Shown in pieces: positions 34,712 through 48,760 of a DNA stretch of 64,000 nt. Source of the DNA: Streptomyces sp. Y2F8-2 (GTDB lineage: Bacteria > Actinomycetota > Actinomycetes > Streptomycetales > Streptomycetaceae); NCBI RefSeq assembly GCF_014905555.1, contig NZ_BNGS01000002.1, forward strand, positions 806,001-870,000. The letters are read 5' to 3'. The position numbers and the translations under genes are program-made. The notes beneath the pieces were generated by a model. It was not told the DNA's origin. It ran no database searches and saw only the letters and a list, made by a program, of their open reading frames with translations. Within the stretch, counting starts at the first letter, position 1. Each line of letters starts with the position of its first letter.

Positions 34712-35896
34712 TCACAGATGGATGGGCAGGTGGCGGGGGCCGCGGAGCATGGCGTTCTGTCGGTACGGGGGCGGGTCTTCCACCAGGCGGGCGCTGCCGA
34801 GATGCGGAAGCAGGGCGCCGAGCGCGGCGTACGCCTCGACGCGAGCCAGGGGTCCGCCATAGCAGGCGTGGATGCCGCTGCCGAAGCCGAGGTGCTGGTT
34901 GTCGGGGCGGGCGGGGTCGAACCGGTCGGGGTCGCGGAACCGCATCGGGTCGCGGTTGCCCGAGGCCAGCACCAGAACGACGGACGCGCCTGCGGGGACG
35001 AGGGTGCCGGCGATGTCGATGTCGGCGTGCGGGATGCGCTCGCGCATGTGGACCGGGGGCTCGTAGCGCAGCAGCTCCTCCACCGCACGCGGGAGCAACT
35101 CCGGTTCCCGGCGCAGCCGGTCCAGCTGCTCGGGCTGGCGCAGGAGGGTGAGGGCGCCGTTGGTGATGAGGTTGACCGTGGTCTCGTGTCCGGCGATGAG
35201 GAGCAGTACGGCGGTTTCCGCGAGTTCCTCGTCGGTGAGCCGCAGAGCCGGGTCCGGCTCGTTGACGAAGGCGGAGAGCATGTCGTCGCCCGGCTTGCCA
35301 CGGCGCTGCTCGGCCAGGTTCAACAGGTAGCCGCCCATCTCCATCCGTGCCTGGTCGCCGGCCTTGTCCGGCTCGGTGGAGTCGTCTTCGGGCCTGACGT
35401 CGGCGGCGGCGACGATCGCGTCGGACCAGGCCCGGAAGAGGGGTTCGTCCTCGTGCGGCACGCCGAGCAGGCGGCAGATCACGGTGACGGGCAGCGGATA
35501 GGCGAAGTCGTCGACGATGTCGATCTGCCGGCCCGCCTCGAACGGCTCCAGCAGTTCCCTGGTGATCCGGTCGATCTCGCCGCGCATGCCGTCGACCCGG
35601 CCAGGGCTGTGCGGGGGCCCGAAGGGCCGCATGGCCAGGGTGCGCAGCCTGTGGTGTTCGGGGTCGTCGAGCCGCAGGAACGGCGGCTTGTGGGTCGCCT
35701 CGCCGCGGGTGCGGGGGTCGGCACTCATCCGTGGGTCGTGGAGCAGCGCGGCGATGTGGTGGTAGGTGCCGATCAGGTAGCTGCCGTCGGCCTGCGGCAC
35801 CACGGGACCGGCCTCGCGGAGTTCTGCGTACAACGGGTAGGGGTTGGGACGGCTGGCGTAGTCGGTGATCCGTGCCAGCAAGGTCGCGGAGTCCAT
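34712..35896 (-). CDS. Cytochrome P450 (bacterial class I)
   Basis: A 394-residue soluble P450. The I-helix AGHETT is at about residues 233-238, the ExxR motif in EELLRYEPP at about 270, and the heme-binding loop FGSGIHACYGGPLAR has the axial cysteine at about 339. It needs a ferredoxin and a reductase, both encoded just upstream on the same strand (37506-35925), giving a complete electron chain. The substrate cannot be told; it may be a secondary metabolite or xenobiotic. Confidence 0.93.
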   Translation of the reverse strand: MDSATLLARITDYASRPNPYPLYAELREAGPVVPQADGSYLIGTYHHIAALLHDPRMSADPRTRGEATHKPPFLRLDDPEHHRLRTLAMRPFGPPHSPGRVDGMRGEIDRITRELLEPFEAGRQIDIVDDFAYPLPVTVICRLLGVPHEDEPLFRAWSDAIVAAADVRPEDDSTEPDKAGDQARMEMGGYLLNLAEQRRGKPGDDMLSAFVNEPDPALRLTDEELAETAVLLLIAGHETTVNLITNGALTLLRQPEQLDRLRREPELLPRAVEELLRYEPPVHMRERIPHADIDIAGTLVPAGASVVLVLASGNRDPMRFRDPDRFDPARPDNQHLGFGSGIHACYGGPLARVEAYAALGALLPHLGSARLVEDPPPYRQNAMLRGPRHLPIHL

Positions 35897-35924
35897 GGCG
35901 GCTCCTCGTGGGGCGGGATGGGGG

Positions 35925-37280
35925 CTACACCACCGTCAGCCGACGGTCGGGAAGGTGACCGGTGAGTGCGACGGTCGGGCCGTGGGACAGCACGGAGGGG
36001 TCCGGTACGGCGGAGGGGATCGTGATGTCGGCCGCGATCGCGCGGTCCTGCGCGCCGGGCGGCGGCGGGAAGGGAGCGGCGGTCTCGATCAGGTGCCGGT
36101 AGTAGTCGAGCGCCTTGGCCATGTCGACGGTGACCGCTGCGGTGACCCGGCCCTGATAGCCGTAGACCATCGCCAGACGGCGGGCCTCCAGGGAGCCCTG
36201 GGCGATGACCACGTGGTCGGAATAGGTGGGCACGCCCACCGACTTGATGTTGAGCCCGAACTGGGTCGACCAGAAGACCGGGATGGCCAGGTGCGGGCGC
36301 TGCAGCGGTCCGGGGTTGACCATGTTGTGGGCCGCCACCTGGGCCTGCTCGACCGCGTTGCCCCAGTGCTCCAGCGACAGCATCTGGTAGCCGAACAGCG
36401 GGTGGGGGAAGCGGGAGACGTCGCCGGCCACGAAGACATCGTCGGTGACGATCCCGTACATGTTGAAAGCCCGGCAGCCAGCGTCGCAGGCGATGCCGCG
36501 CGGGCCCGCCGCCAGCCCCGACTCCGCCAGCCACTCCACATTGCGGATCGCCCCCAGGGCCACGACGCACACGTCCGCCTCGACGCGGCTGCCGTCGGAC
36601 AGCTGCGCGCCGATGAAGCTGCCGTTGCCGTTCAGGGCGGTGACCGTCACCCCGGTGCGCAGGTCCACGCCGTGGTTGCGCTGCATGACGGCCGCGAGCT
36701 TCGACAGGGTGCCGCCGAGCGCGCCCACCAGGGGTGCGGGACCGCGTTCGGCGACGGTCACCTCAAGGCCCAGTTCCCGGCAGGCCGAGGCGATCTCCGA
36801 GCCGGTGAAGCCGCCGCCGATCACCAGCACCCGCTCCGGCCTCGCGGCCAGCCGCTCGGCCAGTCCCGCGCCGTCCTCGCGCGTGCGCAGGGTGAACACC
36901 CCGTCCAGGGCGCCTTCCTCCGGATTGGGCCAGGGCCGCGCGCGGGTCCCGGTCGCGATCAGCAGCCGGTCGTAGGGCAGGGACTCACCGTCTTCGAGCG
37001 ACACCTGTTTCGCCAGCAGGTCCACACCGGTGGCGCGCACGCCGAGGCGCCACTCGGCGTCCGGGTCCCGCCGCATCGGCAGCTCGAGGGTGTCCGCCGC
37101 CGCCTGGCCCAGCAGCACCTGCTTGGACAGCGGCGGCCGGTCGTAGGGCGCATGGGGCTCGTCCCCCACCACCGTCAGTGAACCCGTGAATCCTTCCTCG
37201 CGCAGCGCCTCGGCTGCTCTCAGCCCGGCCAGCGAGGCGCCGACGATGACGATGCGGCCGCCTTTCAGGTCACCGGGCAC
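35925..37280 (-). CDS. FAD-dependent ferredoxin reductase
   Basis: A 451-residue flavoprotein that should pass electrons from NAD(P)H to the neighbouring ferredoxin. The FAD site is IVIVGASLAGLRAAEAL at the N-terminus, the NAD(P)H site VLVIGGGFTGSEIA at about residue 148, and the second FAD motif VFVAGDVSRFP at about 285. A C-terminal domain of about 120 residues is typical of the putidaredoxin reductase family; the last 30 are extra. The start overlaps the ferredoxin gene by 11 bases and the P450 follows after 28 bases. Confidence 0.9.
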   Translation of the reverse strand: MPGDLKGGRIVIVGASLAGLRAAEALREEGFTGSLTVVGDEPHAPYDRPPLSKQVLLGQAAADTLELPMRRDPDAEWRLGVRATGVDLLAKQVSLEDGESLPYDRLLIATGTRARPWPNPEEGALDGVFTLRTREDGAGLAERLAARPERVLVIGGGFTGSEIASACRELGLEVTVAERGPAPLVGALGGTLSKLAAVMQRNHGVDLRTGVTVTALNGNGSFIGAQLSDGSRVEADVCVVALGAIRNVEWLAESGLAAGPRGIACDAGCRAFNMYGIVTDDVFVAGDVSRFPHPLFGYQMLSLEHWGNAVEQAQVAAHNMVNPGPLQRPHLAIPVFWSTQFGLNIKSVGVPTYSDHVVIAQGSLEARRLAMVYGYQGRVTAAVTVDMAKALDYYRHLIETAAPFPPPPGAQDRAIAADITIPSAVPDPSVLSHGPTVALTGHLPDRRLTVV

Positions 37281-37506
37281 CGGTGCTCACCTCTTCCCCC
37301 AGGAGGATCGCCTGCACCGGACACGCGGCCGCGGCCTGGCGCACATGCTCCACCTGATCGTCAGGCACGGCCGTGGCGTACAGCAGCCCCTCCTCGCCGT
37401 GCAGCTCGAACACCTCCGGCGCGAGGAACACGCACTGCGCATAGCCCTGGCAGCGTGTGAGGTCGACAACGGTCCGCATCTCCACCACTTCTTCCTCCGT
37501 TGTCAC
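37270..37506 (-). CDS. Small [3Fe-4S]-type ferredoxin
   Basis: A 78-residue electron carrier. Cysteines in CQGYAQC and the final ACPVQAI are three of the ligands; the usual fourth cysteine of 4Fe-4S proteins is not seen, as in P450-linked [3Fe-4S] ferredoxins. It heads the operon with the reductase and P450. GTG 37506 has AGGAGG a few bases upstream; ATG 37479 would also keep all cysteines. Confidence 0.9.
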   Translation of the reverse strand: MTTEEEVVEMRTVVDLTRCQGYAQCVFLAPEVFELHGEEGLLYATAVPDDQVEHVRQAAAACPVQAILLGEEVSTGAR

Positions 37507-37717: not shown

Positions 37718-37768
37718 CCATACGTCGTATGGTTATCCTGGCAGGGCGATTCCATACAACGTATGGAA
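37718..37768. promoter_or_regulatory. Paired operators CCATAC-N3-GTATGG
   Basis: CCATACGTCGTATGG (37718-37732) and TTCCATACAACGTATGGAA (37750-37768), centres about 34 bases apart. The same 15-bp palindrome occurs four times around the TetR and CYP102 starts (44143-44270), so the TetR repressor probably controls the secreted-protein gene at 37863, and perhaps the divergent P450 operon. Confidence 0.7.
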
Positions 37769-37862
37769 CTGCTTGACGGACAACGCCACACAACGCCAGG
37801 CGCCTCACATCGCCTGCAAAAGCAGCCGTTGGTGCAGATCGCACCAACCGGAAGGAAAGATC

Positions 37863-38330
37863 ATGAAGAAGCTCACGAAGCGGATTGCTGTCGCCGTTTC
37901 CTCCGTGGCGGTCGCGGGTGTCGCCGTTGTCGGTGCCGGGGGCACCGCTTCGGCCGCGACTCCCGCCTCTGTGCACGTCCAGCGGTCGGCCGAGGTCAAC
38001 CTCACCGACTACCGCTGGGACCACGGCGTGGGTTACCTGATCGAGCAGGGCTACTGCTGGGACGGAAAGCGTGGCTGGCACCACGACGACCATGTCGCCG
38101 GCTCCCTCTGGCACAGCCGCGACGGTCGCTGCTACCGCTGGGACGATGAGCGGCGCGGATGGAAGTCCGACAGGTCCTACCGGCTCGACTGGAACCGCTA
38201 CGAGAGCGACGGCCGGGGCTGGGACCACCATCCCTGGAATCGCGGTGACCGGGACTACTTCGGCTGGGACCACTACGACCGGAACCACGGTGGCTGGGAC
38301 CACTACGACCGGAACCACGGTGACCAATAG
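37863..38330 (+). CDS. Secreted Trp/Asp/His/Tyr-rich protein of unknown function
   Basis: A 155-residue protein with a clear signal peptide (MKKLTKRIAVAVSSVAVAGV and onward, cut near TASA-ATPA). The mature part has two cysteines (GYCWDG, GRCYRW) and ends in a stretch dominated by W, D, H, Y and R with the unit GWDHYDRNHG twice. I do not recognise a family. GGAAGGAAAG gives a good ribosome site for ATG 37863. The paired TetR-type operators 95-145 bases upstream suggest it is induced together with the CYP102 enzyme. Confidence 0.75.
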   Translation: MKKLTKRIAVAVSSVAVAGVAVVGAGGTASAATPASVHVQRSAEVNLTDYRWDHGVGYLIEQGYCWDGKRGWHHDDHVAGSLWHSRDGRCYRWDDERRGWKSDRSYRLDWNRYESDGRGWDHHPWNRGDRDYFGWDHYDRNHGGWDHYDRNHGDQ

Positions 38331-38673
38331 GACGGGTCCCGCCTGTGCCCCTGAGCGGAGGCTGTACCCCTCGCCTTGATGCCTGTCGGCGGCAGGGATG
38401 CGACCGCTGGTCACGGATCAGCGGTCCCCTGCCCGCCGCCCGGGCGGGTGATCCAGCGAGGGCCTGCTCCCTGCTCCCCTCTGAACCTGCCTGCGGCACC
38501 ACCTCGTGCCACAGGCGCGCGTCGCCCAACTGCCGCGACGCCACGACCCGCGCGGTCCGCCGATGCTGTCCGGCGCCCGGGCCCTGCTGAACACCTCCTG
38601 ATTCGATGCGTGCTTGTCGCCACGAGCGCCGGGGCGCAGCCGAGGCAAGGAGGGTGCCTTGGAGTGAATGCCC
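38331..38673. other. 343-base region without a recognised gene
   Basis: Between the secreted protein and the first SsgA-like gene. Short open frames exist on both strands but none has a start with a ribosome site or a known motif. The last 30 bases carry the AAGGAGGG and GGAG sites used by the SsgA-like gene. Confidence 0.45.
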
Positions 38674-39093
38674 ATGGAGTCTTCGAGGACCGTGGTTCGG
38701 GCGGTGATCGCGCAGCTCGTCGTCTCGCGCACCTACACACAGCCCTTGTGCATGCGGCTGCGGTACGAGCCTGCTGATCCCTACGTCGTCCGTGCCGCCT
38801 TTTTCGTCCACAGCGACGAGCCGGTCGAATGGGTCCTGGGGCGGGATCTTCTGGCTGACGGTCTGGAGGGTTCCGCAGGTTACGCGGACGTCCGGATCTG
38901 GTCGGCCGCAGGGCGGGGTGACGAGTCGATCTACATCGCCCTCGGTTCTTCCGGAGGCACCGCCTTGCTCGAGGTCCCCGTGCAGGACATCTCGTCCTTC
39001 CTTCAGGACACCCAGGCTTTGGTGCCACGGGGTACCGAGTCCGGACTCATCGACTGGGATGCCGAACTGGCACACCTCCTCCCCCGAGGCTGA
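38674..39093 (+). CDS. SsgA-like sporulation/cell-division protein
   Basis: A 139-residue protein of the SsgA/SsgB family, which is found only in morphologically complex actinobacteria and helps place septa and wall remodelling during sporulation. Family landmarks: LRYEPADPYVVRAAFFVHSD, VEWVLGRDLLADGLEG and GDVRIW-like ADVRIW. ATG 38674 has GGAG nine bases upstream; ATG 38668 is also open. A second, similar gene lies at 40016. Confidence 0.9.
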   Translation: MESSRTVVRAVIAQLVVSRTYTQPLCMRLRYEPADPYVVRAAFFVHSDEPVEWVLGRDLLADGLEGSAGYADVRIWSAAGRGDESIYIALGSSGGTALLEVPVQDISSFLQDTQALVPRGTESGLIDWDAELAHLLPRG

Positions 39094-39133
39094 CCGCCGA
39101 CCATCCGTGCTCAGAAGTAAAGGAACCAGTGTC

Positions 39134-39463
39134 ATGCCCCAGTACCAGCTTCGCGTCTACACCCTGCGCAGCTCCGACGCGCTCTCCGCCTACAAGAAGA
39201 TCTGGGCCCAGCACATTCCCGGTATGGCCAAGCACCGGATCACCACCCACGGCGTCTGGACGGTGCCCGCGGCGCCCGGAAGCGACACCCCCCGGCTGTA
39301 CGCCCTCGTTTCCTACAAGGACGCCGAGGACGTGCAGGAGCGGCTGGAGGCATACCTGTCGAGTCCTGAATTCCGCGCGGACATGGAGGGCTTCGACATC
39401 AAAGAGATCGTCGGCCTCGACGAGACCCTGCTGACGCCCACCGTGGACTCTCCCTTGCGCTGA
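39134..39463 (+). CDS. NIPSNAP-family protein
   Basis: A 109-residue alpha/beta-barrel protein (YQLRVYTLRSSDALSAYKKI, LYALVSYKDAEDVQERL) of the NIPSNAP/dimeric ferredoxin-like superfamily. The biochemical role of bacterial members is unclear. ATG 39134 follows AAAGGA. It begins 40 bases after the first SsgA-like gene and is likely cotranscribed with it. Confidence 0.85.
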   Translation: MPQYQLRVYTLRSSDALSAYKKIWAQHIPGMAKHRITTHGVWTVPAAPGSDTPRLYALVSYKDAEDVQERLEAYLSSPEFRADMEGFDIKEIVGLDETLLTPTVDSPLR

Positions 39464-39477
39464 CGATCGGCCTGCGA

Positions 39478-39611
39478 CGAGTGACGCGGCCAGAAGGGCC
39501 GGTATCCGGCGGCCCTGCGATGGTGGTTCCGGTGTCGTCGATGGCGACCCACCAGTGGTGGCCCTTGCCGGCATCGATACCGACCCATAAGCAGGGCACC
39601 TGTGTGGTCAT
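39478..39611 (-). mobile_element. IS110-family transposase N-terminal remnant
   Basis: The minus strand from ATG 39611 reads MTTQVPCLWVGIDAGKGHHW then VAIDDTGTTIAG, the start of an IS110 (DEDD) transposase with its first aspartate. After about 40 residues the similarity stops; the C-terminal serine domain is absent. It is a dead scrap between the SsgA-like genes. Confidence 0.75.
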
Positions 39612-40015
39612 GTGCGTCTCCTCGGACTCGGACAGCGTGCCGTTCCGGTCCAAGGACGGCTCTGCCCTGCGTGACCGGGCCCCGGCAACCACGGCCCGCG
39701 TCGAGGTGGGGACCGTGACGAGTCGGTTCACTACAACCACGACCGGTACAGCGTCGATCGCTGACACCAAGGGCGCCCTTTGTCCGGCAACCACCGTTGG
39801 CCACATCTCCGTGATGGCCCCGGCCGGCAGTGGTGGCCTCGCCTGCTCCCGTCGGCTGGGCGCCCTTGCGACGGCACGAAGAACTGCTCCTGCGGGTGTC
39901 ACCGTGCCGCCCCCGGTCCTCGCAGTAACCGCGTCTCTGTGCAGCCCCTTTGAATCCGACGACAGCCCTTCCGGTGGCCCTCCCCGGATGACTCGAAGCA
40001 CCAGGAGTATGACCA
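39612..40015. other. 404-base region upstream of the IS110 scrap
   Basis: No gene recognised on either strand. It may contain part of the IS110 left end, where intact elements encode their guide RNA, but no element boundary can be seen. The end contains AGGAG for the GTG at 40016. Confidence 0.4.
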
Positions 40016-40441
40016 GTGAAGTCATTGAGAACTGTGATCCAGAGGCTACCTGTGAAGCTTGTCGGCATGCATGCGACGTCCTTGCCCATGATCATGAACC
40101 TGCGGTACGAGCCGAGTGATCCCTATGCGGTCCATGCCGCATTCACCACCGATGTCGACAGCGACGAGCCGGTGGAATGGATCACCGGGCGCGATTTGCT
40201 GATCGACGGTCTGGAGGGCCCCGCCGGCGAGGGAGACGTTCGCATATGGCCCACCGGCGAGGAGGGCAGCCGCGATTTGTACATCCTTCTCAACCCGCCG
40301 TCCGGTACGGCCCTGCTCAAGGCCCCAGCGCAGGAATTCAAGGCGTTCCTGCAGGAAACGGAGGCAGTGGTGCCCCGGGGGGCCGAGCTCGGCCACAGCG
40401 ACTTCGACCCGTTGCTGACGCACTTCCTCGCCGAAGGGTGA
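40016..40441 (+). CDS. Second SsgA-like sporulation/cell-division protein
   Basis: A 141-residue paralogue of the gene at 38674, with the same landmarks (LRYEPSDPYAVHAAF, DEPVEWITGRDLLIDGLEG, GDVRIWPTGEEG) and a C-terminus LTHFLAEG. About half of the residues are the same, so the pair looks like a local duplication later separated by an IS110 insertion. GTG 40016 follows AGGAG by nine bases. Which stage of septation it serves is not known. Confidence 0.9.
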   Translation: MKSLRTVIQRLPVKLVGMHATSLPMIMNLRYEPSDPYAVHAAFTTDVDSDEPVEWITGRDLLIDGLEGPAGEGDVRIWPTGEEGSRDLYILLNPPSGTALLKAPAQEFKAFLQETEAVVPRGAELGHSDFDPLLTHFLAEG

Positions 40442-40816
40442 GTCCTGTCAGGGTGCGACCCGAGGCAGGCACACGGACGTCTGCGCCTCGGTGTTCACCG
40501 CCATGGTGAGTGGATATCCGCAGTCGGGGCGTCGAGGGCGGCCGGGTCGATGCCGGCCTCGGTCAGGATGTTCGCCGCGACTCCGCGGCCGACCCGCCCC
40601 GGTGAGACCAGCCGTCACGCGGCAACCCGCTACCTGCGTCGCATCGCCCACCTTCCCGCGCTCCGTAGCTCGCCGCTCATCGGCAGGCTCTGCCGCAGGG
40701 ACGCACCTGAAGGCGTTTACGTCGTCGTGGTGCGCCCTGCAGCGGAAGTCTGGCCGCCGTTTGTCCGCTTCGCGCTCGCCCCGCAAGCCCGCTGGTGGAC
40801 GACGGCCGAGTTGGGG
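40442..40816. other. 375-base region with unplaced fragments
   Basis: No intact gene. The minus strand at about 40600-40500 reads ANILTEAGIDPAALD, which looks like coding sequence from a lost gene that I cannot name. The remainder is featureless. Confidence 0.35.
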
Positions 40817-41461
40817 TCAGCCGGAGTGCTGGCCGAACCTGCTGAACTGCTCGACTCATGGATGGCTACTGGGACGGGCGGCTGCCCGACGAAGAAACGC
40901 TCGAAGAACAGCGGCCCGGCGGTGGCCATGGCGAATGGTCGGGGGTGACGTCGAGCCGGAGCTGGCCGCGCTCGACGGCTGTGGTAACCGCGGGACACAG
41001 GGCGTCGGCGATCTGGTTCAGCAGTGACTCCCGAAGGCGGCGCATACCTTCGTCGTGCCGTGAGCTCCCGAGGACCGCGGCAAGGACGGCCCCCGATTGC
41101 TCGTCGTCCCAACGCTCGGCGAGCACGTTTAGACGGTAGATGAGCTCCGCTCGCGGATCGTTGCCGAAGCGGCCCGAAGCTCCTCGGGTACCGGAGGGAG
41201 AGGGGGCATGCCGGCCTCCAACGCGGCCAGGCGGAGGTCGAGAAGGCTCGGCCAGTGCCGGTAGACGGTTGTCCTGCCCACGCCGGCACGAGTCGCAACC
41301 GTTTGATGTGTCACGGCCTCCAGCCCACCTTCCGTGAGCAACGCGGTGGCCGCCGCGACCATGGCCTCACGACTGCGCAATAGACGCGGATCTGTTCGAT
41401 CTTCCGCCTGGTACACCTTCCGCTGATAGAACCCGAGTCGCAGCCACGATGGGACATCCAT
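40817..41461 (-). pseudogene. TetR-family regulator with several frameshifts
   Basis: From ATG 41461 the frame gives a normal TetR helix-turn-helix (LLTEGGLEAVTHQTVATRAG, VGRTTVYRHWPSLLDLR) and stops early. The remainder continues in other frames: AELIYRLNVLAERWDDEQSG, then AMATAGPLFFERFFVGQPPV, then EQFSRFGQHSG stop at 40817. Three one-base changes (near 41165, 40945 and 40865) would restore one gene of about 215 residues. It lies downstream of the MFS exporter on the same strand and probably once regulated it. Confidence 0.8.
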
Positions 41462-41536
41462 TGCGCAGGGGAGGGGAGCCGCAAAGACCCTGTTCGCCCC
41501 CCTCGAAGGTGGGCCCTAAAAGCACTGCTTGTCCCA

Positions 41537-43045
41537 CTACATGTGCACGACGGATGCAGCGTTCCCGTTCTGCTGGGGCACACCCCGGCGGTAGAGCAGG
41601 GCGGTGACGACCAGGCCGGTGACGAAGACGGCCGCCGACCACCAGTAGGCCGTGGAATAGCCCTCCAGGCCGGCCTGAGCCAGCACGCCGGGGTTCTTGG
41701 GATTGCGGCCGGAGAGGTAGCCGGTGGCGGCGTCGGAGGCCATCGTGCTGAGCAAGGCGATGCCAATGGAGCCGCCCACCTGCTGAAGCGTATTGACAGC
41801 GGCCGACGCAACGCCGGCATCGGCGGCCGCCACCCCGGAGGTCGCCAGGCTCATGGCGGGCGCGATGACCGTGCCCAGCCCGATGCCGACGAGTACCAGC
41901 TGGGGCAGTACCTGCGTCACGTATCCGCTGTTCAGGTCCAGCTTGGTCATCCAGATCAGCCCGGCGGCCGCAATGGCCATGCCCAGCGGGACCACCGGCG
42001 TCGGTCCTACGCGCGCCACCAGGACGTTGTTCGCCGCCGCGGAGGCGGACGACGAGGCCACGATCAGGGGCAGGAAGGCGAAGCCGGTGTCCAGAGCGCT
42101 GCAGCCGAGGCTCTGCTGCAGGTAGTAGGTCAGGAACAGGAACACGCCGAACATGCCCGCGCCGGTGACGAAGAGGGCGGCGAAGGAGGCACCGCGGTTA
42201 CGGTCCAGCAGGACCCGCAGGGGCAGCAGCGGAGACGCCGCCCTGCTCTGCCACCGGGCGAAGACGGCCACCAGTACGGCGCCGACTGCCAGCATGCCCC
42301 AGGTCGCCACCGAGCCCCAGCCGTGCGTTTCGGCGTTCGAGAACCCGTAGACCAGGCAGAACAGTCCGATGGAGGCCAGCAGAGTGCCGGGGACGTCGAG
42401 CTTGGAGGTCGTGTCACGCGGGGTGCGGTGCAGCAGGGCTGCCCCACCGACGAACGCCACCACCGCGAAGATCACGTTGACGTACATGGTCCAGCGCCAG
42501 TCCAGGTACTGGGTCAGCACGCCGCCGAGGATCAGGCCGATGGCTCCGCCGGCACCGGCGACCGATCCCGCGACAGTGAAAGCTTTCGCCCGCTCGCGCG
42601 GATCGGTGAAGGTGGTCATCAGGACCGACAGGGCCGACGGGGCCAGCAGGGCGGCGAACAGGCCCTGGACGGCGCGCGCGATGACGAGCATGGCGAAACC
42701 GTTCGCCGCGCCTGCCACCATGGAAGCGGCCGCGAAGCCGGCCAGACCCACCAGGAACGTCACCTTCTGCCCGACGAGGTCTGCGACCCTGCCGCCGAGC
42801 AGCAGCAGGCTGCCGAAGGCCAGCGCATAGGCGGTGACCACCCACTGCCGGTCGGCGTCCGAGAAGCCCAGGTCGTGCTGGGCGGACGGCAGGGCGATGT
42901 TCACGATGGTGCCGTCGAGGACACCCATCAGCATCGACAGGGAAATGACCAACAGAATCCACCAGCGACGCCGGTGCGACAGGTCGGGCACATTCTCAGC
43001 TGTGGTCTCGGCGCCGCAAGCAGCGACGGTGGCGTTCTGGGACAT
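41537..43045 (-). CDS. MFS drug exporter, DHA2 (EmrB/QacA) family
   Basis: A 502-residue exporter with 14 predicted helices. Motif A-like GGRVADLVGQKV follows helix 2, motif C GSVAGAGGAIGLILGGVL is in helix 5, and helix 1 has LDGTIVNIALP, all typical of drug:H+ antiporters. ATG 43045 has GGAGG about ten bases upstream; the frame stays open to 43123. The broken TetR gene lies just downstream, and the intact TetR at 43445 lies upstream on the same strand beyond a folded region, so control may have passed to the latter. Confidence 0.9.
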   Translation of the reverse strand: MSQNATVAACGAETTAENVPDLSHRRRWWILLVISLSMLMGVLDGTIVNIALPSAQHDLGFSDADRQWVVTAYALAFGSLLLLGGRVADLVGQKVTFLVGLAGFAAASMVAGAANGFAMLVIARAVQGLFAALLAPSALSVLMTTFTDPRERAKAFTVAGSVAGAGGAIGLILGGVLTQYLDWRWTMYVNVIFAVVAFVGGAALLHRTPRDTTSKLDVPGTLLASIGLFCLVYGFSNAETHGWGSVATWGMLAVGAVLVAVFARWQSRAASPLLPLRVLLDRNRGASFAALFVTGAGMFGVFLFLTYYLQQSLGCSALDTGFAFLPLIVASSSASAAANNVLVARVGPTPVVPLGMAIAAAGLIWMTKLDLNSGYVTQVLPQLVLVGIGLGTVIAPAMSLATSGVAAADAGVASAAVNTLQQVGGSIGIALLSTMASDAATGYLSGRNPKNPGVLAQAGLEGYSTAYWWSAAVFVTGLVVTALLYRRGVPQQNGNAASVVHM

Positions 43046-43318
43046 GGGGGCAGTCCTCCGGACAGCGAATGGGGGATGGAGGAAGAGAGAAAAGAACGGA
43101 TCGAGAGATCGGGTAGGTCTCATCCGGTACGGGGCGACACTTCGCGCTCACGGGCGGGAGCACTCGGCGGCGTAGCCGCCTCGGTGAACGCGGATGATGC
43201 AGCTCGACGAGGCCGACGGTCTCCCCCTCAGGAGGGAGACCAGGAACAAGCCGACGACCATGGTCATTTCACGGTTCAGCGTCGGCATGCGGCTGCCGTG
43301 TAGAGGCTGGATGTGGAA

Positions 43319-43357
43319 CCACCCCGCCGGGCGGTCTCACCCGATGTGACGGGGTGG
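43319..43357. terminator. Hairpin CCACCCCG / CGGGGTGG
   Basis: An 8-bp perfect stem between the TetR gene end and the MFS gene start; possible terminator for the TetR transcript. Confidence 0.5.
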
Positions 43358-43370
43358 CTCCCGTGTGTCG

Positions 43371-43438
43371 CAGCCTGAGATCGCCCGACTGCGGGCGCGC
43401 CTCAGGCGCCAGCGCCTGGGGCGCAGCGTCTCAGGCTG
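43371..43438. other. Cloverleaf-like nested inverted repeats
   Basis: Outer arms CAGCCTGAGA (43371-43380) and TCTCAGGCTG (43429-43438) enclose two further perfect hairpins: CGCCCG/CGGGCG (43382-43397) and CGCC-CAGGCGC/GCGCCTG-GGCG (43398-43423). The 68-base element folds as a three-way junction on either strand. It starts six bases after the TetR stop, so it may be a terminator, but the design is richer than usual. Confidence 0.7.
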
Positions 43439-43444
43439 ACTAGC

Positions 43445-44146
43445 TCAATGGCCGGCATGCCGGCCGTCACGACCGGCGGTGAGGCGGCTTTCCAGGCCCG
43501 TGATCAGCGTGTCCATCACGAGGCGGAACATGTGGTCCTGGTCAGGGCCTTCGGGGGCCGCACTCGTAGAGCCAGGGTCTGCGTCCGCGGCCCCGTCTTC
43601 GTCGGATTCAGGGCCGTGGGACTTGAGGGTCGACCACTGATGGAGAGCGCCGTTTAGTTCTGCGGTGAGGACACCGATGACGACGGCGACCATCAGCGCG
43701 GCGATCTCCGAGACCTCTGACTGCGGCACACCGGCAGCGGCCACGATGGCGGTGAGGGCGGTCCAGAACGGGTCGTCGGGCTGGATGAAGTCCGGCTGGT
43801 GGCTGAACGAGTACGCCAGCAGCTTAGGGTGACGGTGCGCCAGCGTCCGGAAGTCCGTGGCGAGCAGACGGATCCGCTCCTGCCAGGGAGCGTCCTCCAG
43901 GGTCACGGTGCGGAACTGCGCTCCGACCATTCTCGTCACGCCGCGCAGCACGGCTTCCTTGTTCGGCACGTGGTGGTACAGCGACATCGGGTTCGCGTCG
44001 AGCGCGGTGGCGAGTTTGCGCATGGTGAGCGCCTCGACCCCGTCCTCGTCGATGAGCCGCAGGGCGGCGGCATAGATCCCGGCCTCCGTCAGAGGCACGT
44101 CTCTCTTCCTCGTTCCCCGCGGGGGACGCCTCACCTTCTTTTCCAT
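43445..44146 (-). CDS. TetR-family repressor divergent from CYP102
   Basis: A 233-residue repressor with an N-terminal HTH (ALTMRKLATALDANPMSLYHH, V-NKEAVLRGV) and a TetR C-terminal ligand domain; a Glu/Asp/Ser-rich insert lies at about residues 180-205. The palindrome CCATACCCCGTACGG (44143-44157) overlaps its own ATG, and a second (44166-44180) follows, so it should repress itself. In Bacillus the related arrangement is known: Bm3R1, a TetR repressor, controls CYP102A1. A longer frame from GTG 44173 would start within the operator. Confidence 0.88.
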   Translation of the reverse strand: MEKKVRRPPRGTRKRDVPLTEAGIYAAALRLIDEDGVEALTMRKLATALDANPMSLYHHVPNKEAVLRGVTRMVGAQFRTVTLEDAPWQERIRLLATDFRTLAHRHPKLLAYSFSHQPDFIQPDDPFWTALTAIVAAAGVPQSEVSEIAALMVAVVIGVLTAELNGALHQWSTLKSHGPESDEDGAADADPGSTSAAPEGPDQDHMFRLVMDTLITGLESRLTAGRDGRHAGH

Positions 44147-44180
44147 ACCCCGTACGGTACCAGTTCCGTACACGGTACGG
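44143..44180. promoter_or_regulatory. Paired TetR operators at the repressor start
   Basis: CCATACCCCGTACGG (44143-44157) and CCGTACACGGTACGG (44166-44180), centres 23 bases apart, both fitting CCRTAC-N3-GTAYGG. Confidence 0.75.
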
Positions 44181-44232
44181 AAATGAGCTTCACCACAGCT
44201 TCACCCGGGCTACCGGGGTTGCGCTCCACTTT

Positions 44233-44270
44233 CCATACCCCGTATGGTTCAAGTTCCATACGACGTATGT
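44233..44270. promoter_or_regulatory. Paired TetR operators before CYP102
   Basis: CCATACCCCGTATGG (44233-44247) and CCATACGACGTATGT (44256-44270), centres 23 bases apart as in the pair before the repressor gene, 80-118 bases upstream of ATG 44351. Confidence 0.75.
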
Positions 44271-44350: not shown

Positions 44351-47300
44351 ATGACCACGCACTCCGCGAACGACCTTCACCCCATCCGGTCCCCGCGCGG
44401 GATCCCCCTCCTCGGCAACACGCCGCAGATCCCCGACAGCAATCCGGTGGAGTACTTCGGTGAGCTGTCCAAGCAGTTCCCCGAGGGCATCTACGGCATG
44501 GACATCGCCGGCATCGAGCAGGTCTTCGTCTACGACCCGGACCTGGTGGCCGAGGTCTGCGACGAGACGCGGTTCTTCAAGCAGATCGACAAGACGCCGC
44601 TGCACCACGTCCGGGACTTCGCGGGGGCGGGCCTGTTCACGGCCCACCAGTACGAAGAGGAATGGGGCATGGCACACCGTGTCCTGCTGCCGGCGTTCAG
44701 CCAGCGGGCCATGAAGGCGTACTTCGGGCAGATGCTGGAGATCGCCCAGAACCTGGCGGGCAAGTGGGAGCGCCGGGAGGGTCAGCCGGTCAACATCACC
44801 GACGACTACACCCGCCTGACGCTCGACACCATCGCCCTGTCGGGGTTCGGCTACCGGTTCAAGTCCTTCGACAAGGAGGAGCTGCACCCCTTCCTCAACG
44901 CGCTGCTGGAGGCGCTGATCGAGTCGTTGCGGCGCTCGCAGGAGCTGCCGATGATGACCAGGCTCCGCAAGGCGGACGACCGGAAGTACCGCGACAACAT
45001 CCGGCTGATGCAGGACCTGGTCGAGAGCGTGATCAAGGAGCGCCGCGAGGGCAAGGGCACCGGTGAGGAGGACCTTCTGGGCCTGATGCTGGAGGCCACG
45101 GACCCGGAAACCGGCAAGCTGCTGGCCGACGACAACGTCCGCGACCAGGTGCTGACGTTCCTGATCGCCGGCCACGAGACCACCAGTGGTCTGCTGTCGT
45201 TCGCCACGTACTCGCTGATGCGCAACCCGCACGTCCTGGCCCAGGCGTACGCCGAGGTGGACCGCCTGCTGCCCGGTGACACCGTCCCGGACTACGACAC
45301 GATCATGCAGCTGGACGTCATCCCGCGGATCCTGGACGAGACCCTGCGCCTGTGGGCTCCCATCCCGGCGTTCGGCAAGGCCCCGCTGGAGGACACCGTC
45401 ATCGGTGGCCGCTACCTTCTCAAGAAGGGCACGCGGGTCAACATCCTCGAGGGTCCCCTGCACACCCACCCCAAGGCGTGGGACCGTCCCGACGAGTTCG
45501 ACATCGACCGGTGGCTGCCGGAGAACCGCGCCCAGCAGCACCCGCACGCCTACAAGCCGTTCGGCAACGGTGTGCGTGCCTGCATCGGCCGGCAGTTCGC
45601 GCTCACCGAGGCCCGCCTGGCCCTGGCGCTGGTGCTGCAGAAGTTCAAGCTCTCGGACACCAGCGACTACAAGATGGACGTGCGGGAGGCGTTGACGCGC
45701 AAGCCCGGCAACTTCGAGCTGATCGTCCGTCGCCGTCAGGAGCACGAGCGGACCGTCTTCGGCGCCGCGGACCGGCAGACCGGCGACACGCAGGCGCAGG
45801 CAGCGGTCAGCGGCGTCGGGGTGAACCTGACCGTCGCCTACGGCTCCAGCCTCGGCTCGTGCGAGGACCTGGCCCGCACCATCGCCGACCGCGGCGAGCG
45901 CTCCGGCTTCGGCACCACGCTGGTGAGCCTGGACGAGCTGGGCGACAACCTGCCCTCCGAGGGCCTGCTCGCCGTCGTGGCCGCCAGCTACAACGGCAAG
46001 GCTCCCGACAACGCCCAGCGCTTCGACGACCTGCTCGCCGCCGGGCTGCCCGAGGGCTCGCTGGCGGACGTGCGGTACGCGCTGCTGGGCGCCGGCAACA
46101 CCCAATGGGTGGCCACCTACCAGGCATTCCCCAAGCGGGTCGAGGAAGGTCTGCTGGCCGCCGGCGCCACCCCCATCGTCGAGCGCGGCATCGCGGACGC
46201 CGCCGGTGACTTCGACGGCATGGCCACGCGGTGGATGGACAACCTGTGGGCCACTCTGGCCGAGGAGTACGCCGCCGACACCTCCCAGGCCAGCGGCCCG
46301 CGCTACCAGGTCCAACTGCTCACCGAGTCCGACGTGCGCCCCGCCATCGTCTCCGAGCAGGCGTACCCGCTCACCGTGGTGGCCAACGAGGAACTCGTGG
46401 CCGACGCGACCGGCCTGTGGGACTTCAGTATCGAGCCGCCGCGCCCGTCCGCGAAGTCCATCACCTTCGAGCTGCCCGAGGGCGTCACCTACGACACCGG
46501 CAACCACCTGGCCGTTTTCGCCAAGAACGAACTCGCCCTGGTGGAGCGCGCACTGAGGCGGCTCGGCGTCGAGTACGACCAGGTGCTCCGGCTCGACCAG
46601 CCGGCCGGTGGCCGTACCCACCTGCCGGTCGGCACGCCGGTCACCGCCGGCATCCTGCTCACCGAGTTCCTGGAGCTGCAGGACGTGGCCACCCGGTCCC
46701 AGATCCAGACGCTCGCCGAGTACACCGAGTGCCCGTGGACCCGGCCGCAGCTCCAGGCGTACACCGCCGACACCCAGGAGGCCGAGGAGCGCTACCAGAA
46801 GGAGATCCTCGGCAAGCGCATCTCGGTGCTGGGCCTGCTGGAGCGCTTCCCGGCCGTCGAGCTGCCGCTGGCGGTTTTCCTGGAGATGATGGGCCCCATC
46901 CGCCCGCGCTTCTACTCCATCTCCTCCGCCCCGTCGGCCAACCCGCGTCACGTGCGCCTGACCGTCGGCCTGCTGGAGGGCCCGGCCCTGTCCGGCGACG
47001 GCCAGTACCGCGGCACCTGCTCCGCCTACATCGCGGCCCTCGAGCCCGGAGACGTCGTCTACGGCTACGTCCGCGTCCCCTCCCCGACGTTCGCCCCGCC
47101 CGCCGACCCCGCCACGCCGCTGATCCTCATCGGCCCCGGCACCGGCATCGCGCCGCTGCGCGGCTTCCTGGAGGAGCGGGCGACACAGCACGCGAACGGC
47201 ACCCAGGTAGGCGCGTCGCAGGTCTTCGTCGGCTGCCGCCACCCGGAGCACGACTACTTCTACAAGCAGGAGATGCAGGACTGGGAGCAGGCCGGGATCG

Positions 47301-47572
47301 CGCAGATCCACACCGCCTTCTCCGCGGTGACCGGCCACCCGGCCCGCTTTGTGCAGAACGCCATCGCCCATGCCGCCGACACGGTGTGGCAGGCCATCGA
47401 GGACGGCGCGTACATCTACGTCTGCGGTGACGGCCGCCGCATGGCCCCCGCCGTCCGCGAGGCACTCGCCGCCATCCACCGCCAGAAGACCGGCAGCGAC
47501 GACGAGAGGGCCCAGCAGTGGCTCGCCCAGCTCGAAGCGGACGAGCGCTACCAGCAGGACGTCTTCGCCTGA
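44351..47572 (+). CDS. CYP102-family P450-reductase fusion (BM3-type fatty acid hydroxylase)
   Basis: A 1073-residue self-sufficient monooxygenase. Heme domain 1 to about 470: AGHETT with T277/T278, ExxR in ETLR, and FGNGVRACIG with the axial Cys411. FMN domain about 490-640 (VAYGSSLGSCEDLA, ASYNGKAPDNA). FAD domain about 670-900 (RFYSISSAP, GTCSAYI) and NADPH domain to the end (GPGTGIAPLRGF, YVCGDGRRMAP). The order and length match P450 BM3, which hydroxylates long-chain fatty acids near the omega end. GAGGAG precedes ATG 44351. The divergent TetR and four palindromes indicate inducible expression; the alcohol dehydrogenase downstream could oxidise the product. Confidence 0.95.
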   Translation: MTTHSANDLHPIRSPRGIPLLGNTPQIPDSNPVEYFGELSKQFPEGIYGMDIAGIEQVFVYDPDLVAEVCDETRFFKQIDKTPLHHVRDFAGAGLFTAHQYEEEWGMAHRVLLPAFSQRAMKAYFGQMLEIAQNLAGKWERREGQPVNITDDYTRLTLDTIALSGFGYRFKSFDKEELHPFLNALLEALIESLRRSQELPMMTRLRKADDRKYRDNIRLMQDLVESVIKERREGKGTGEEDLLGLMLEATDPETGKLLADDNVRDQVLTFLIAGHETTSGLLSFATYSLMRNPHVLAQAYAEVDRLLPGDTVPDYDTIMQLDVIPRILDETLRLWAPIPAFGKAPLEDTVIGGRYLLKKGTRVNILEGPLHTHPKAWDRPDEFDIDRWLPENRAQQHPHAYKPFGNGVRACIGRQFALTEARLALALVLQKFKLSDTSDYKMDVREALTRKPGNFELIVRRRQEHERTVFGAADRQTGDTQAQAAVSGVGVNLTVAYGSSLGSCEDLARTIADRGERSGFGTTLVSLDELGDNLPSEGLLAVVAASYNGKAPDNAQRFDDLLAAGLPEGSLADVRYALLGAGNTQWVATYQAFPKRVEEGLLAAGATPIVERGIADAAGDFDGMATRWMDNLWATLAEEYAADTSQASGPRYQVQLLTESDVRPAIVSEQAYPLTVVANEELVADATGLWDFSIEPPRPSAKSITFELPEGVTYDTGNHLAVFAKNELALVERALRRLGVEYDQVLRLDQPAGGRTHLPVGTPVTAGILLTEFLELQDVATRSQIQTLAEYTECPWTRPQLQAYTADTQEAEERYQKEILGKRISVLGLLERFPAVELPLAVFLEMMGPIRPRFYSISSAPSANPRHVRLTVGLLEGPALSGDGQYRGTCSAYIAALEPGDVVYGYVRVPSPTFAPPADPATPLILIGPGTGIAPLRGFLEERATQHANGTQVGASQVFVGCRHPEHDYFYKQEMQDWEQAGIAQIHTAFSAVTGHPARFVQNAIAHAADTVWQAIEDGAYIYVCGDGRRMAPAVREALAAIHRQKTGSDDERAQQWLAQLEADERYQQDVFA

Positions 47573-47713: not shown

Positions 47714-48760
47714 ATGGACACCATGCTCGCCGGACGCTTCCACCTGGACAGCAAGAAGTTCGCCGTGGAGGAAGTCCCGATCCCCGTGCCGGGCCCGGGC
47801 GAGGTCCTCATCGAGGTCAAGGCCGCAGGCGTCTGCCTCTCCGACGTCCACCTGCTCGACGGCTCCCTCGTCCCGCTGTTCGCCACCTCCGACACCATCA
47901 CCGTCGGCCACGAGGTCTCCGGTGTGATCCACACGCTCGGCCCCGACCTCAAGCGCGGCTTGGCCGTCGGCACCCACGTCACCCTGGAGGCCGGCAAGAC
48001 CTGCGGCAAGTGCGCCGGATGCGTGCGCCACCGCCCCTGCACCCAGATGCTCACCGCCGGCATCGACTACGACGGCGGCTGGGCCGAGTACGTGATCGCC
48101 CGCGAGGACACCCTCATCCCCATCCCCGACAGCCTCCCCTTCGACCAGGCCGCGATCATCCCCGACGCGGTCTCCACCCCCTACGCCGCCGTCGTCGCCA
48201 CCGCGGGCGTCCGTGCCGCCCAGTCCGTCGGCGTCTGGGGAGTCGGCGGAGTCGGCGCCCACAACGTACGCCTCGCCCGCCTGGTCGGCGCCGCCCCGAT
48301 CATCGCCATCGACCCACTGCCCAGCGCCCGCGAGCGCGCCCTGGCCTTCGGCGCGGACCTCGCGCTCGACCCGGCAGCCCCCGACTTCGCCGACCAGGTC
48401 CGCGCAGCCACCGGCGGACGCGGCCTCGACTTCGCCTTCGACTGCGCCGGCGTCCCCGCCGTACGCGACCAGGCCGCCTCCGTGCTCGGCCTGGGCGGCT
48501 CCCTGATCCTGGTCGGCATCACACCCCGGCCACTGACCATCACCGAGGGCCTGACCTTCAACTACCTGCAGAAGCAGGTGCGCGGCCACTACGGCGGCTT
48601 CCCCGAGTCCGTCTCCGAGCTGGTGCAGCTGACCGCGGCCGGCCGCCTCGACCTGGCCCCCTCCATCACCGACCACATCCCGCTCATCGAGGCCGCCGAC
48701 GCCGTCCACCGACTGGAGAACAAGATCGGCGACCCGATCCGCCTCATCCTCGTCCCCTGA
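47714..48760 (+). CDS. Zinc-dependent alcohol dehydrogenase (MDR family)
   Basis: A 348-residue dehydrogenase with catalytic zinc ligands Cys41 (GVCLSDVH) and His in VGHEVSG (about 67), structural zinc cysteines in CGKCAGCVRHRPC (about 97-109) and the NAD(P) loop GVGGVGAH (about 176). It oxidises an alcohol to an aldehyde or ketone in the cytoplasm. Position right after the CYP102 gene suggests it handles hydroxylated fatty acids, but the perfect hairpin between them makes a single operon uncertain. A hairpin terminator follows at 48801. Confidence 0.9.
   Translation: MDTMLAGRFHLDSKKFAVEEVPIPVPGPGEVLIEVKAAGVCLSDVHLLDGSLVPLFATSDTITVGHEVSGVIHTLGPDLKRGLAVGTHVTLEAGKTCGKCAGCVRHRPCTQMLTAGIDYDGGWAEYVIAREDTLIPIPDSLPFDQAAIIPDAVSTPYAAVVATAGVRAAQSVGVWGVGGVGAHNVRLARLVGAAPIIAIDPLPSARERALAFGADLALDPAAPDFADQVRAATGGRGLDFAFDCAGVPAVRDQAASVLGLGGSLILVGITPRPLTITEGLTFNYLQKQVRGHYGGFPESVSELVQLTAAGRLDLAPSITDHIPLIEAADAVHRLENKIGDPIRLILVP

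Follow-up and report, generated by a model that had tools for sequence, protein, structure and literature searches.

Putative paired TetR-type operators at a CYP102 gene and before a secreted-protein gene in Streptomyces sp. Y2F8-2

Genes and paired palindromes of the locus

The analysed stretch of the Streptomyces sp. Y2F8-2 genome (64,000 nucleotides, hereafter the window) carries a tetR gene divergent from a CYP102 gene and, about 6 kb away, a gene for a small secreted protein. Predicted operators (S1 to S6) stand in pairs in front of these genes:

34712-37506, minus strand: divergent ferredoxin, ferredoxin-reductase and P450 genes
37718..37732, no strand: operator S1, CCATACGTCGTATGG, exact match; upstream member of the secreted-gene pair
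37752..37766, no strand: operator S2, CCATACAACGTATGG, exact match; 34 bp after S1
37863..38330, plus strand: secreted protein, 155 aa, Trp/Asp/His-rich; signal peptide identified by eye (..GTASA)
38386..38441, plus strand: hairpin between the secreted and SsgA-like genes, from RNA folding
38674..39093, plus strand: SsgA-like protein (SALP) 1; Pfam SsgA (PF04686), 3.4e-30
39134..39463, plus strand: NIPSNAP-family protein; Pfam NIPSNAP, 9.4e-19
40016..40441, plus strand: SsgA-like protein 2; Pfam SsgA (PF04686), 1.9e-32
41537..43045, minus strand: DHA2/EmrB-type MFS exporter, downstream of tetR
43445..44146, minus strand: TetR repressor; Pfam TetR_N, TetR_C_33
44143..44157, no strand: operator S3, exact match; contains the likely tetR start codon
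44166..44180, no strand: operator S4, exact match; 23 bp after S3
44233..44247, no strand: operator S5, CYP102 promoter, exact match; centre 111 nt before the CYP102 start
44256..44270, no strand: operator S6; centre 88 nt before the CYP102 start
44351..47572, plus strand: CYP102-type P450-reductase fusion, 1073 aa; Pfam p450, Flavodoxin_1, FAD_binding_1, NAD_binding_1
47714..48760, plus strand: zinc-binding dehydrogenase; Pfam ADH_N, ADH_zinc_N

Exact copies of CCRTACNNNGTAYGG occur at five window positions, S1 to S5. The three palindrome pairs described in the earlier sequence-only reading are thus confirmed with two corrections: S2 starts at 37752, not 37753, and S6, ending in GTATGT, has one mismatch at its last base. 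Within the pairs, the site starts are 34, 23 and 23 bp apart. The pairs at 44.1-44.3 kb both fall inside the TetR/CYP102 intergenic region, and the 37.7-kb pair sits 145 and 111 nt upstream of the secreted-gene ATG. S2 has the full 19-bp TTCC..GGAA form. The window sites satisfy the wider CCRTACNNNGTAYGG, while the published CCRTACRVYGTATGS is not matched at every position.

The exact motif is found at 11 places in the 8.57-Mb genome, five of them in the window. The six places outside correspond to about 0.045 expected per 64 kb, against five seen (Poisson p ~1.5e-9). All six are of the CCGTAC/GTACGG type, and a search for the 19-bp TTCCRTACNNNGTAYGGAA allowing two mismatches recovers none of them; as candidate targets they were set aside as background. 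Exact occurrences of the CCATAC type are confined to the window. Looser searches discriminate poorly. When two mismatches are allowed, the window has 13 matches (shuffle mean 6.35), a number reached by 4 of 100 shuffles, and the loose motif taken by itself counts for little; at up to one mismatch the whole genome has 111 places versus 66 for the reversed pattern, and background is therefore common at that level.

TetR is 233 aa long from the ATG inside S3 (GT-ATG-G), or 218 aa from a GTG at 44101. At the longest ATG start of tetR, 74 of 80 ORFs read GTATGG (redundant loci are counted, and the window's own ORF is one of the 74), although four of these GTATGG copies are part of the adjacent site. 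The conserved TetR N-terminus supports a start at GTATGG, and by this conservation the operator would overlap the repressor's start codon. Within the 260 bp upstream of tetR, a site with at most one mismatch is present in 52 of 54 named loci. The recognition segment ANPMSLYHH is invariant among 19 aligned TetR proteins of both subtypes; an Arthrobacter TetR outside this alignment has ANPMSLYYH.

The secreted protein had been described as belonging to no known family, and this is borne out: no Pfam or NCBIfam match was found at E 0.001, and its single PDB match has an E value of 0.91. A structure model (mean pLDDT 43.6) was too poor for use, and a by-eye -35/-10 assignment for the promoter was set aside. 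The gap of ~340 bp to the SsgA-like gene contains the hairpin, a possible attenuator or 3' stabiliser; the fold of 38331-38470 reaches -77.4 kcal/mol (z -2.21) and 4 of 200 shuffles are equally stable. SALP 1, for which an alternative start at 38668 is possible, shares the SsgA domain with SALP 2 (genes at 38674 and 40016). It scores under the NCBIfam SsgD cut-off and differs from known SsgA-like proteins in its tie to the secreted protein and the TetR operator. The window scan detected no operator within one mismatch upstream of SALP 2.

Conservation of the 37.7-kb pair and its linkage to TetR

Across 295 Streptomyces genomes, this TetR is present in 21, the exact operator pair in 19 and the secreted gene (E below 1e-20) in 15. 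The sets are nested: all 15 secreted-gene genomes fall within the 19 pair genomes, which in turn fall within the 21 TetR genomes. A control pair of the reversed pattern occurs in 0 of the 295. Treating genomes as independent, with no correction for descent, Fisher tests give p = 5e-28 for pair and TetR and 9e-21 for secreted gene and TetR. Secreted-protein homologues in seven TetR-less genomes (best E 1.6e-6 to 9.4e-4) were taken as chance similarity; the stretches holding their best matches (L035-L041) contain no site within one mismatch.

Since Streptomyces genomes encode many TetR proteins, another regulator might read the 37.7-kb sites, their likeness to the TetR/CYP102 operators being coincidence or convergence. 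We consider this very improbable. The TetR is present in 15/15 secreted-gene genomes and 19/19 exact-pair genomes, the 19-bp form is the same as at the TetR/CYP102 promoters, and the source genome has one TetR of the SAV576/SAV577 type at E 1e-25 or better (10 candidates scored).

All 39 secreted genes that differ in their upstream DNA are preceded by an exact operator; this set was drawn solely from loci fetched for TetR or the secreted protein. When two mismatches are tolerated in each site, 36 of the 39 have a pair 33-35 bp apart, and it is upstream of these 36 paired homologues that counterparts of S1 are present; in the pair of L115 the second site has two mismatches. The other three, a divergent subtype (L123, L126, L130), have a single site only. 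A plasmid-borne cluster (L221) also encodes the secreted protein behind an exact pair 34 bp apart.

Sequence conservation was measured on upstream blocks less than 90% identical to one another. Of 45 secreted genes, 8 showed no 34-bp pair over the range scanned and 13 were near copies, one of them the row of the window itself; setting both groups aside left 24 blocks with a mean pairwise identity of 55%. Information per column is 1.94 and 1.86 bits in the half-sites, 0.98 and 0.92 in the N3 centres, 0.85 in the spacer and 0.69 and 0.52 in the flanks. Four loci were omitted from the 45, the match not reaching the start or being absent: L168 has a pair 33 bp apart upstream, the gene of L140 is cut by the end of its stretch, and in L116 and L129 upstream pairs precede the secreted-like genes, that of L129 with a mismatch.

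The patchy distribution of the secreted gene (15/295 genomes), and a cluster that may spread as a block, with one complete copy on a linear plasmid, would suit the view that this upstream DNA is functionless and conserved merely through recent common descent. That view is hardly credible, because among the 24 blocks the half-sites hardly change, in contrast to the variable N3 centre, spacer and flanks.

The conserved pair might instead mainly serve the divergent ferredoxin, ferredoxin-reductase and P450 genes, leaving the secreted gene a bystander. The pair does sit in the intergenic region between the P450 cluster and the secreted gene, and many relatives have a similar P450 cluster beyond it, as does the plasmid of L221. 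However, the secreted gene and pair persist where no P450 cluster was matched in the fetched stretch (e.g. L139, L165, L167). In L108, L112 and L118 the reductase is ~62% and the P450 ~48% identical, and the reductase begins ~0.9 kb beyond the pair. For 34 of the 39 secreted genes, the upstream site precedes the gene start by 127-145 nt. We therefore regard the bystander explanation as unlikely; the divergent genes could nevertheless share the 37.7-kb sites.

An SsgA-like partner accompanies the secreted gene in 33 of 39 cases and a NIPSNAP gene in 32 of 39; six have no SsgA-like gene inside 3 kb on the same strand. The third target, first proposed as the secreted gene by itself, thus appears usually to be an operon-like unit of secreted protein, SsgA-like protein and NIPSNAP protein.

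Extent of the target set

A genome scan had been expected to reveal further targets; when run, few appeared and the strong sites proved mostly local. Across the 21 TetR-bearing genomes, 126 of 129 extended matches fall inside the clusters, and the three outside (G273, G218, G236) are all CCGTAC/GTACGG. Twenty-one TetR-less genomes contain 9 extended matches, 7 of them CCGTAC/GTACGG. The outlying match of G273 (L202), situated between predicted genes that diverge, may mark one more target or belong to a different regulator. Outside the window, the source genome has five places that differ from the 19-bp form by one or two bases, each of them within a predicted gene; gene calls outside the window follow a simple GC3 rule and are hints only. 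On these sequence comparisons the target set looks nearly closed and local. The G040 homologue of the MFS exporter has its own operator pair ~0.5 kb upstream.

Relation to known CYP102 repressors and proposed regulation

The operator, the TetR type and the CYP102 target were already published for S. avermitilis (PMC3742746, PMC4051647), the switch itself in 2013. There, SAV576 and SAV577 repress SAV575 (CYP102D1) via CCRTACRVYGTATGS. Binding of SAV576 to this sequence before SAV575 was established by DNase footprints, EMSA with mutated palindromes and deletion mutants, one site overlies the repressor's own start codon (PMC3742746), and SAV577 acts on the same sites (PMC4051647). The two systems share the palindrome, the divergent TetR/CYP102 arrangement, a dehydrogenase after the P450 and an operator on the repressor start. 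From the published positions, the CYP102-side site centres of S. avermitilis lie ~108 and ~81 nt before the start, and SAV574 and SAV575 are co-transcribed (PMC3742746); the window dehydrogenase gene, the SAV574 counterpart, is probably co-transcribed with CYP102. S. avermitilis was not found in our scan of named genomes. One of its published primer strings is absent from the 220 loci, and another equals a conserved CYP102 end in 58 of them. In the relatives L122, L126, L160 and L171, the arrangement of the genes and their product lengths (218-219 and 265 aa) would fit counterparts of SAV576/SAV577.

The window genome differs in having a single TetR of this type, apparently SAV577-like, in the SAV576 position, plus a second operator pair. 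S. avermitilis has nearby the co-transcribed SAV579-SAV580 (ssgZ)-SAV581, including a putative secreted protein; PMC3742746, in the text consulted, does not examine SAV581 as a target. Searches of open-licence main texts yielded no paper on the secreted-protein branch beyond this mention of SAV581. As far as searched, the third promoter is a new branch of the regulon.

The sequence-only reading had named Bm3R1 as precedent, but SAV576/SAV577 are closer, with a footprinted operator that is this palindrome and CYP102D1 as target. Bm3R1 (CYP102A1, Bacillus megaterium) and FatR (cyp102A3, B. subtilis) are likewise TetR-family repressors of CYP102 fatty-acid hydroxylases and are released by fatty acids (PMC3814354, PMC9281120). 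FatR shares one operon with its P450 and has an 18-bp palindrome (PMC9281120), whereas the window TetR is divergent from its P450. Against a profile of the window's TetR family, ActR and TetR class structures scored better than 3he0, which is described as a FatR homologue in PMC3814354 and came last of 39.

Conservation and co-occurrence strongly support the first proposal that TetR, CYP102 and the secreted gene are under common control. We consider it very likely that a TetR of the SAV576/SAV577 type (43445-44146) would bind paired 15-19-bp palindromes at three places: its own start codon, the CYP102-dehydrogenase promoter and the promoter of the secreted-protein unit. With ligand absent, two dimers per promoter would stop RNA polymerase; a small molecule, most likely fatty-acid-like or otherwise membrane-active, would free the promoters, and once the repressor was released the three units would be transcribed together. 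Binding and repression at the secreted-gene promoter are predicted from its sites. The identity of the ligand, a common lipid-like or toxic inducer of the P450 and the secreted protein, and a joint function in lipid defence and at the cell surface are what we infer from this arrangement.

Rather tentatively, the cluster may represent a mobile, nearly closed TetR regulon that couples sensing of membrane-active lipids or antimicrobials to chemical removal (CYP102, the dehydrogenase and, in some genomes, an exporter) and to a surface or septum response by the Trp/Asp/His-rich secreted protein and its dedicated SsgA-like partner. A strong developmental role is disfavoured: no evident difference was seen for the SAV576 mutant on three solid media, and its growth was unchanged, although SAV577 was still present in that strain (PMC3742746).

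Since SAV576 and SAV577 affect avermectin yield, the complete target set is of practical interest. CYP102 repressors are known mainly for control of the P450 itself, and the SsgA-like family is tied to Streptomyces cell division. A conserved second target joining secreted and SsgA-like proteins would suggest that the inducer also alters the cell surface or septation, and the secreted family gains a testable expression condition.

Genes and palindromes of the region

Between 37.8 and 48.8 kb the window holds a secreted-protein gene, two SsgA-like genes with a NIPSNAP gene between them, a short TetR-like ORF, and genes for a DHA2-type exporter and TetR, followed by those for the CYP102-type fusion and zinc-binding dehydrogenase.

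34712-37506, transcribed away from the secreted gene: ferredoxin, ferredoxin-reductase and P450 genes
37863-38330, plus strand: secreted protein
41129-41461: TetR-like ORF of 110 aa, only its DNA-binding domain matched (Pfam)
43445-44146, minus strand: TetR
44351-47572, plus strand: CYP102-type fusion
47714-48760, plus strand: zinc-binding dehydrogenase

The sequence-only reading had placed pairs of the palindrome CCRTACNNNGTAYGG before the secreted gene and between the divergent tetR and CYP102 genes. This is borne out, with five exact copies and one near-exact copy in place; one lies at 37752, not 37753, and the copy at 44256 has one mismatch. Of the genome's 11 exact copies, 5 lie inside the window and the remainder all have the CCGTAC form. 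One-mismatch copies are common genome-wide (111, where the reversed pattern gives 66). Chance explains the exact window copies poorly; for those with two mismatches it nearly suffices. A genome scan, proposed as a route to further targets, gave next-best 19-bp places that all lie inside predicted genes. The palindrome CCGTACGAAGTACGGTG is present away from the cluster in two genomes, at G000:C2:937838 and at G273:C1:3899685 (locus L202), the latter between divergent predicted genes; these copies are perhaps another regulator's site.

Two features make 44146 the most likely TetR start: conservation of the N-terminus (MEKK..PRGTRKRDVPLT), and the presence of an operator half, GTATGG, at the longest ATG start in 74 of the 80 tetR ORFs (redundant loci included). 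The secreted protein matches neither Pfam nor NCBIfam, and its family shares a conserved block around DYRWDHGVGYLLEQGYSWDE. It had been described as a Trp/Asp/His protein; these residues are indeed abundant in its tail, but they are not a defining trait because the tail changes fast and is absent from some homologues. A GC-rich hairpin (38386-38441) between the secreted and SsgA-like genes may set their relative expression; the 38331-38470 fold has -77.4 kcal/mol (z -2.21), with 4 of 200 shuffles equally stable.

Several smaller features accompany these genes. An inverted repeat seen by eye at about 37831-37850 (TTGGTGC-AGATC-GCACCAA), just 5' of the secreted-gene ribosome-binding region, is partially retained among relatives. 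The ferredoxin, reductase and P450 genes often, not always, adjoin the secreted gene in relatives. The TetR-like ORF is possibly truncated; homologous stretches of similar length repeatedly adjoin the exporter in relatives. A minus-strand ORF stretch, CLWVGIDAGKGHHWWVAID, lies at about 39500-39620 in the gap separating the NIPSNAP gene from the second SsgA-like gene, and looks like the start of an IS110-type transposase.

The S. avermitilis precedent

The operator, the regulator type and the CYP102 target are already known from work on SAV576 and SAV577 of S. avermitilis. Through CCRTACRVYGTATGS, SAV576 represses its own gene as well as SAV575 (CYP102D1) and the dehydrogenase gene SAV574, as ChIP, EMSA, footprinting and mutated probes established, and one of its sites overlaps its own start codon (PMC3742746); SAV577 competes for SAV576 sites (PMC4051647). 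SAV579, SAV580 (ssgZ) and SAV581 form one transcriptional unit with a putatively secreted product, similar sites before other genes are reported in a supplementary table, and orthologues of SAV576-SAV579 and SAV581 were reported absent from other sequenced Streptomyces (PMC3742746). No test of SAV581 as a target was found in the accessible parts of the published S. avermitilis work.

SAV576 has 218 residues and lacks a C-terminal stretch of 47 found in SAV577 (PMC3742746, PMC4051647). Two TetRs, of 218-219 and 265 aa, occur together in relatives L122, L126, L160 and L171, and pairs of 218 + 262 aa and 218 + 240 aa in G034 and Rhodococcus L164. The window TetR is nearer the 265-aa type (72% versus 58-59%, for L122 and L126). 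From these relatives we infer that it is SAV577-like.

Conservation of the secreted-gene promoter

Among 295 Streptomyces genomes, TetR was found in 21 (E 1e-25 or better), the exact operator pair in 19 (reversed pattern, 0) and the secreted protein strongly in 15 (E below 1e-20) and weakly in 7. The sets are nested, secreted gene within operator pair within TetR, with Fisher values uncorrected for shared descent. In G003 and G172, which have TetR without the exact pair, the sites adjoin tetR, some with a mismatch or starting CCGTAC, forms that the pair pattern does not take; neither genome gave a secreted-gene match in this search.

A scan of named genomes, partly overlapping this set, gave 54 loci that include Rhodococcus, Arthrobacter, Saccharothrix, Actinoallomurus, Actinacidiphila and Peterkaempfera. 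All but two (L181, L188) have a site with at most one mismatch within 260 bp 5' of tetR (52/54), and secreted-protein matches among them are confined to Streptomyces. Peterkaempfera (L179) has a pair spaced 30 bp apart, its second site with one mismatch, ahead of a short ORF in which a similar signal peptide is fused to an SsgA-like end. The loci examined contain 45 secreted genes, 39 with distinct upstream DNA. An exact site stands before every one of the 39, and before 36 of them a pair 33-35 bp apart (at most two mismatches per site); SsgA-like and NIPSNAP genes lie downstream in 33 and 32. Across 24 upstream blocks of less than 90% mutual identity, the half-sites are nearly invariant and the three central bases, spacer and surroundings vary, a pattern that selection for a bound protein would predict.

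The set of strong sites is nearly closed. In the 21 TetR genomes, 126 of the 129 CCRTACNNNGTAYGGAA matches belong to these clusters (both strands counted for fully symmetric sites); the reversed-pattern control gave 5, and 21 genomes without TetR gave 9, spread over 8 genomes. G040 has a further pair about 0.5 kb 5' of an MFS exporter; G040, G034 and G273 have second secreted-like/SsgA-like units with pairs upstream; and in Arthrobacter L173 and L178 a pair lies 5' of an ORF resembling, by eye, an ABC exporter.

On the 998-kb linear plasmid of Streptomyces sp. NBC_01136 (NZ_CP108633.1), a protein annotated "hypothetical" is a clear secreted-protein homologue, preceded by an exact pair spaced 34 bp apart. 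The plasmid groups this gene and its operator pair with TetR, CYP102, dehydrogenase, NIPSNAP, SsgA-like and ferredoxin-P450 genes; a TetR match is present as well in three other plasmid records from Streptomyces and in one record from Rhodococcus. In G218 the secreted gene and pair occur twice on one 8.5-Mb contig, about 23 kb from either end, and the two copies score equally, as terminal inverted repeats would. G117 has a second cluster in which TetR remains together with the secreted unit and that unit's pair; the 19-kb stretch gave no CYP102 match.

Proposed control and significance

The SAV575 sites lie about 108 and 81 nt 5' of the start codon, one covering the potential -10 region and one the transcription start (PMC3742746); the window CYP102 site centres lie 111 and 88 nt 5' of the start. 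As at SAV575, bound TetR would block RNA polymerase at the CYP102 promoter, and would do likewise at the secreted-gene promoter, where the 34-bp spacing exceeds 23 bp by about one helical turn. Fatty acids are the first guess for the ligand, because CYP102D1 oxidises them (PMC4051647) and they displace Bm3R1 and FatR (PMC3814354, PMC9281120); exporters that share this operator in certain genomes suggest a toxic compound. A strong developmental role is disfavoured, since the SAV576 mutant looks normal on solid media (PMC3742746). Shared control of TetR, CYP102 and the secreted gene is a proposal that is likely right. The S. avermitilis work lowers its novelty, and the conserved secreted/SsgA-like/NIPSNAP branch raises it.
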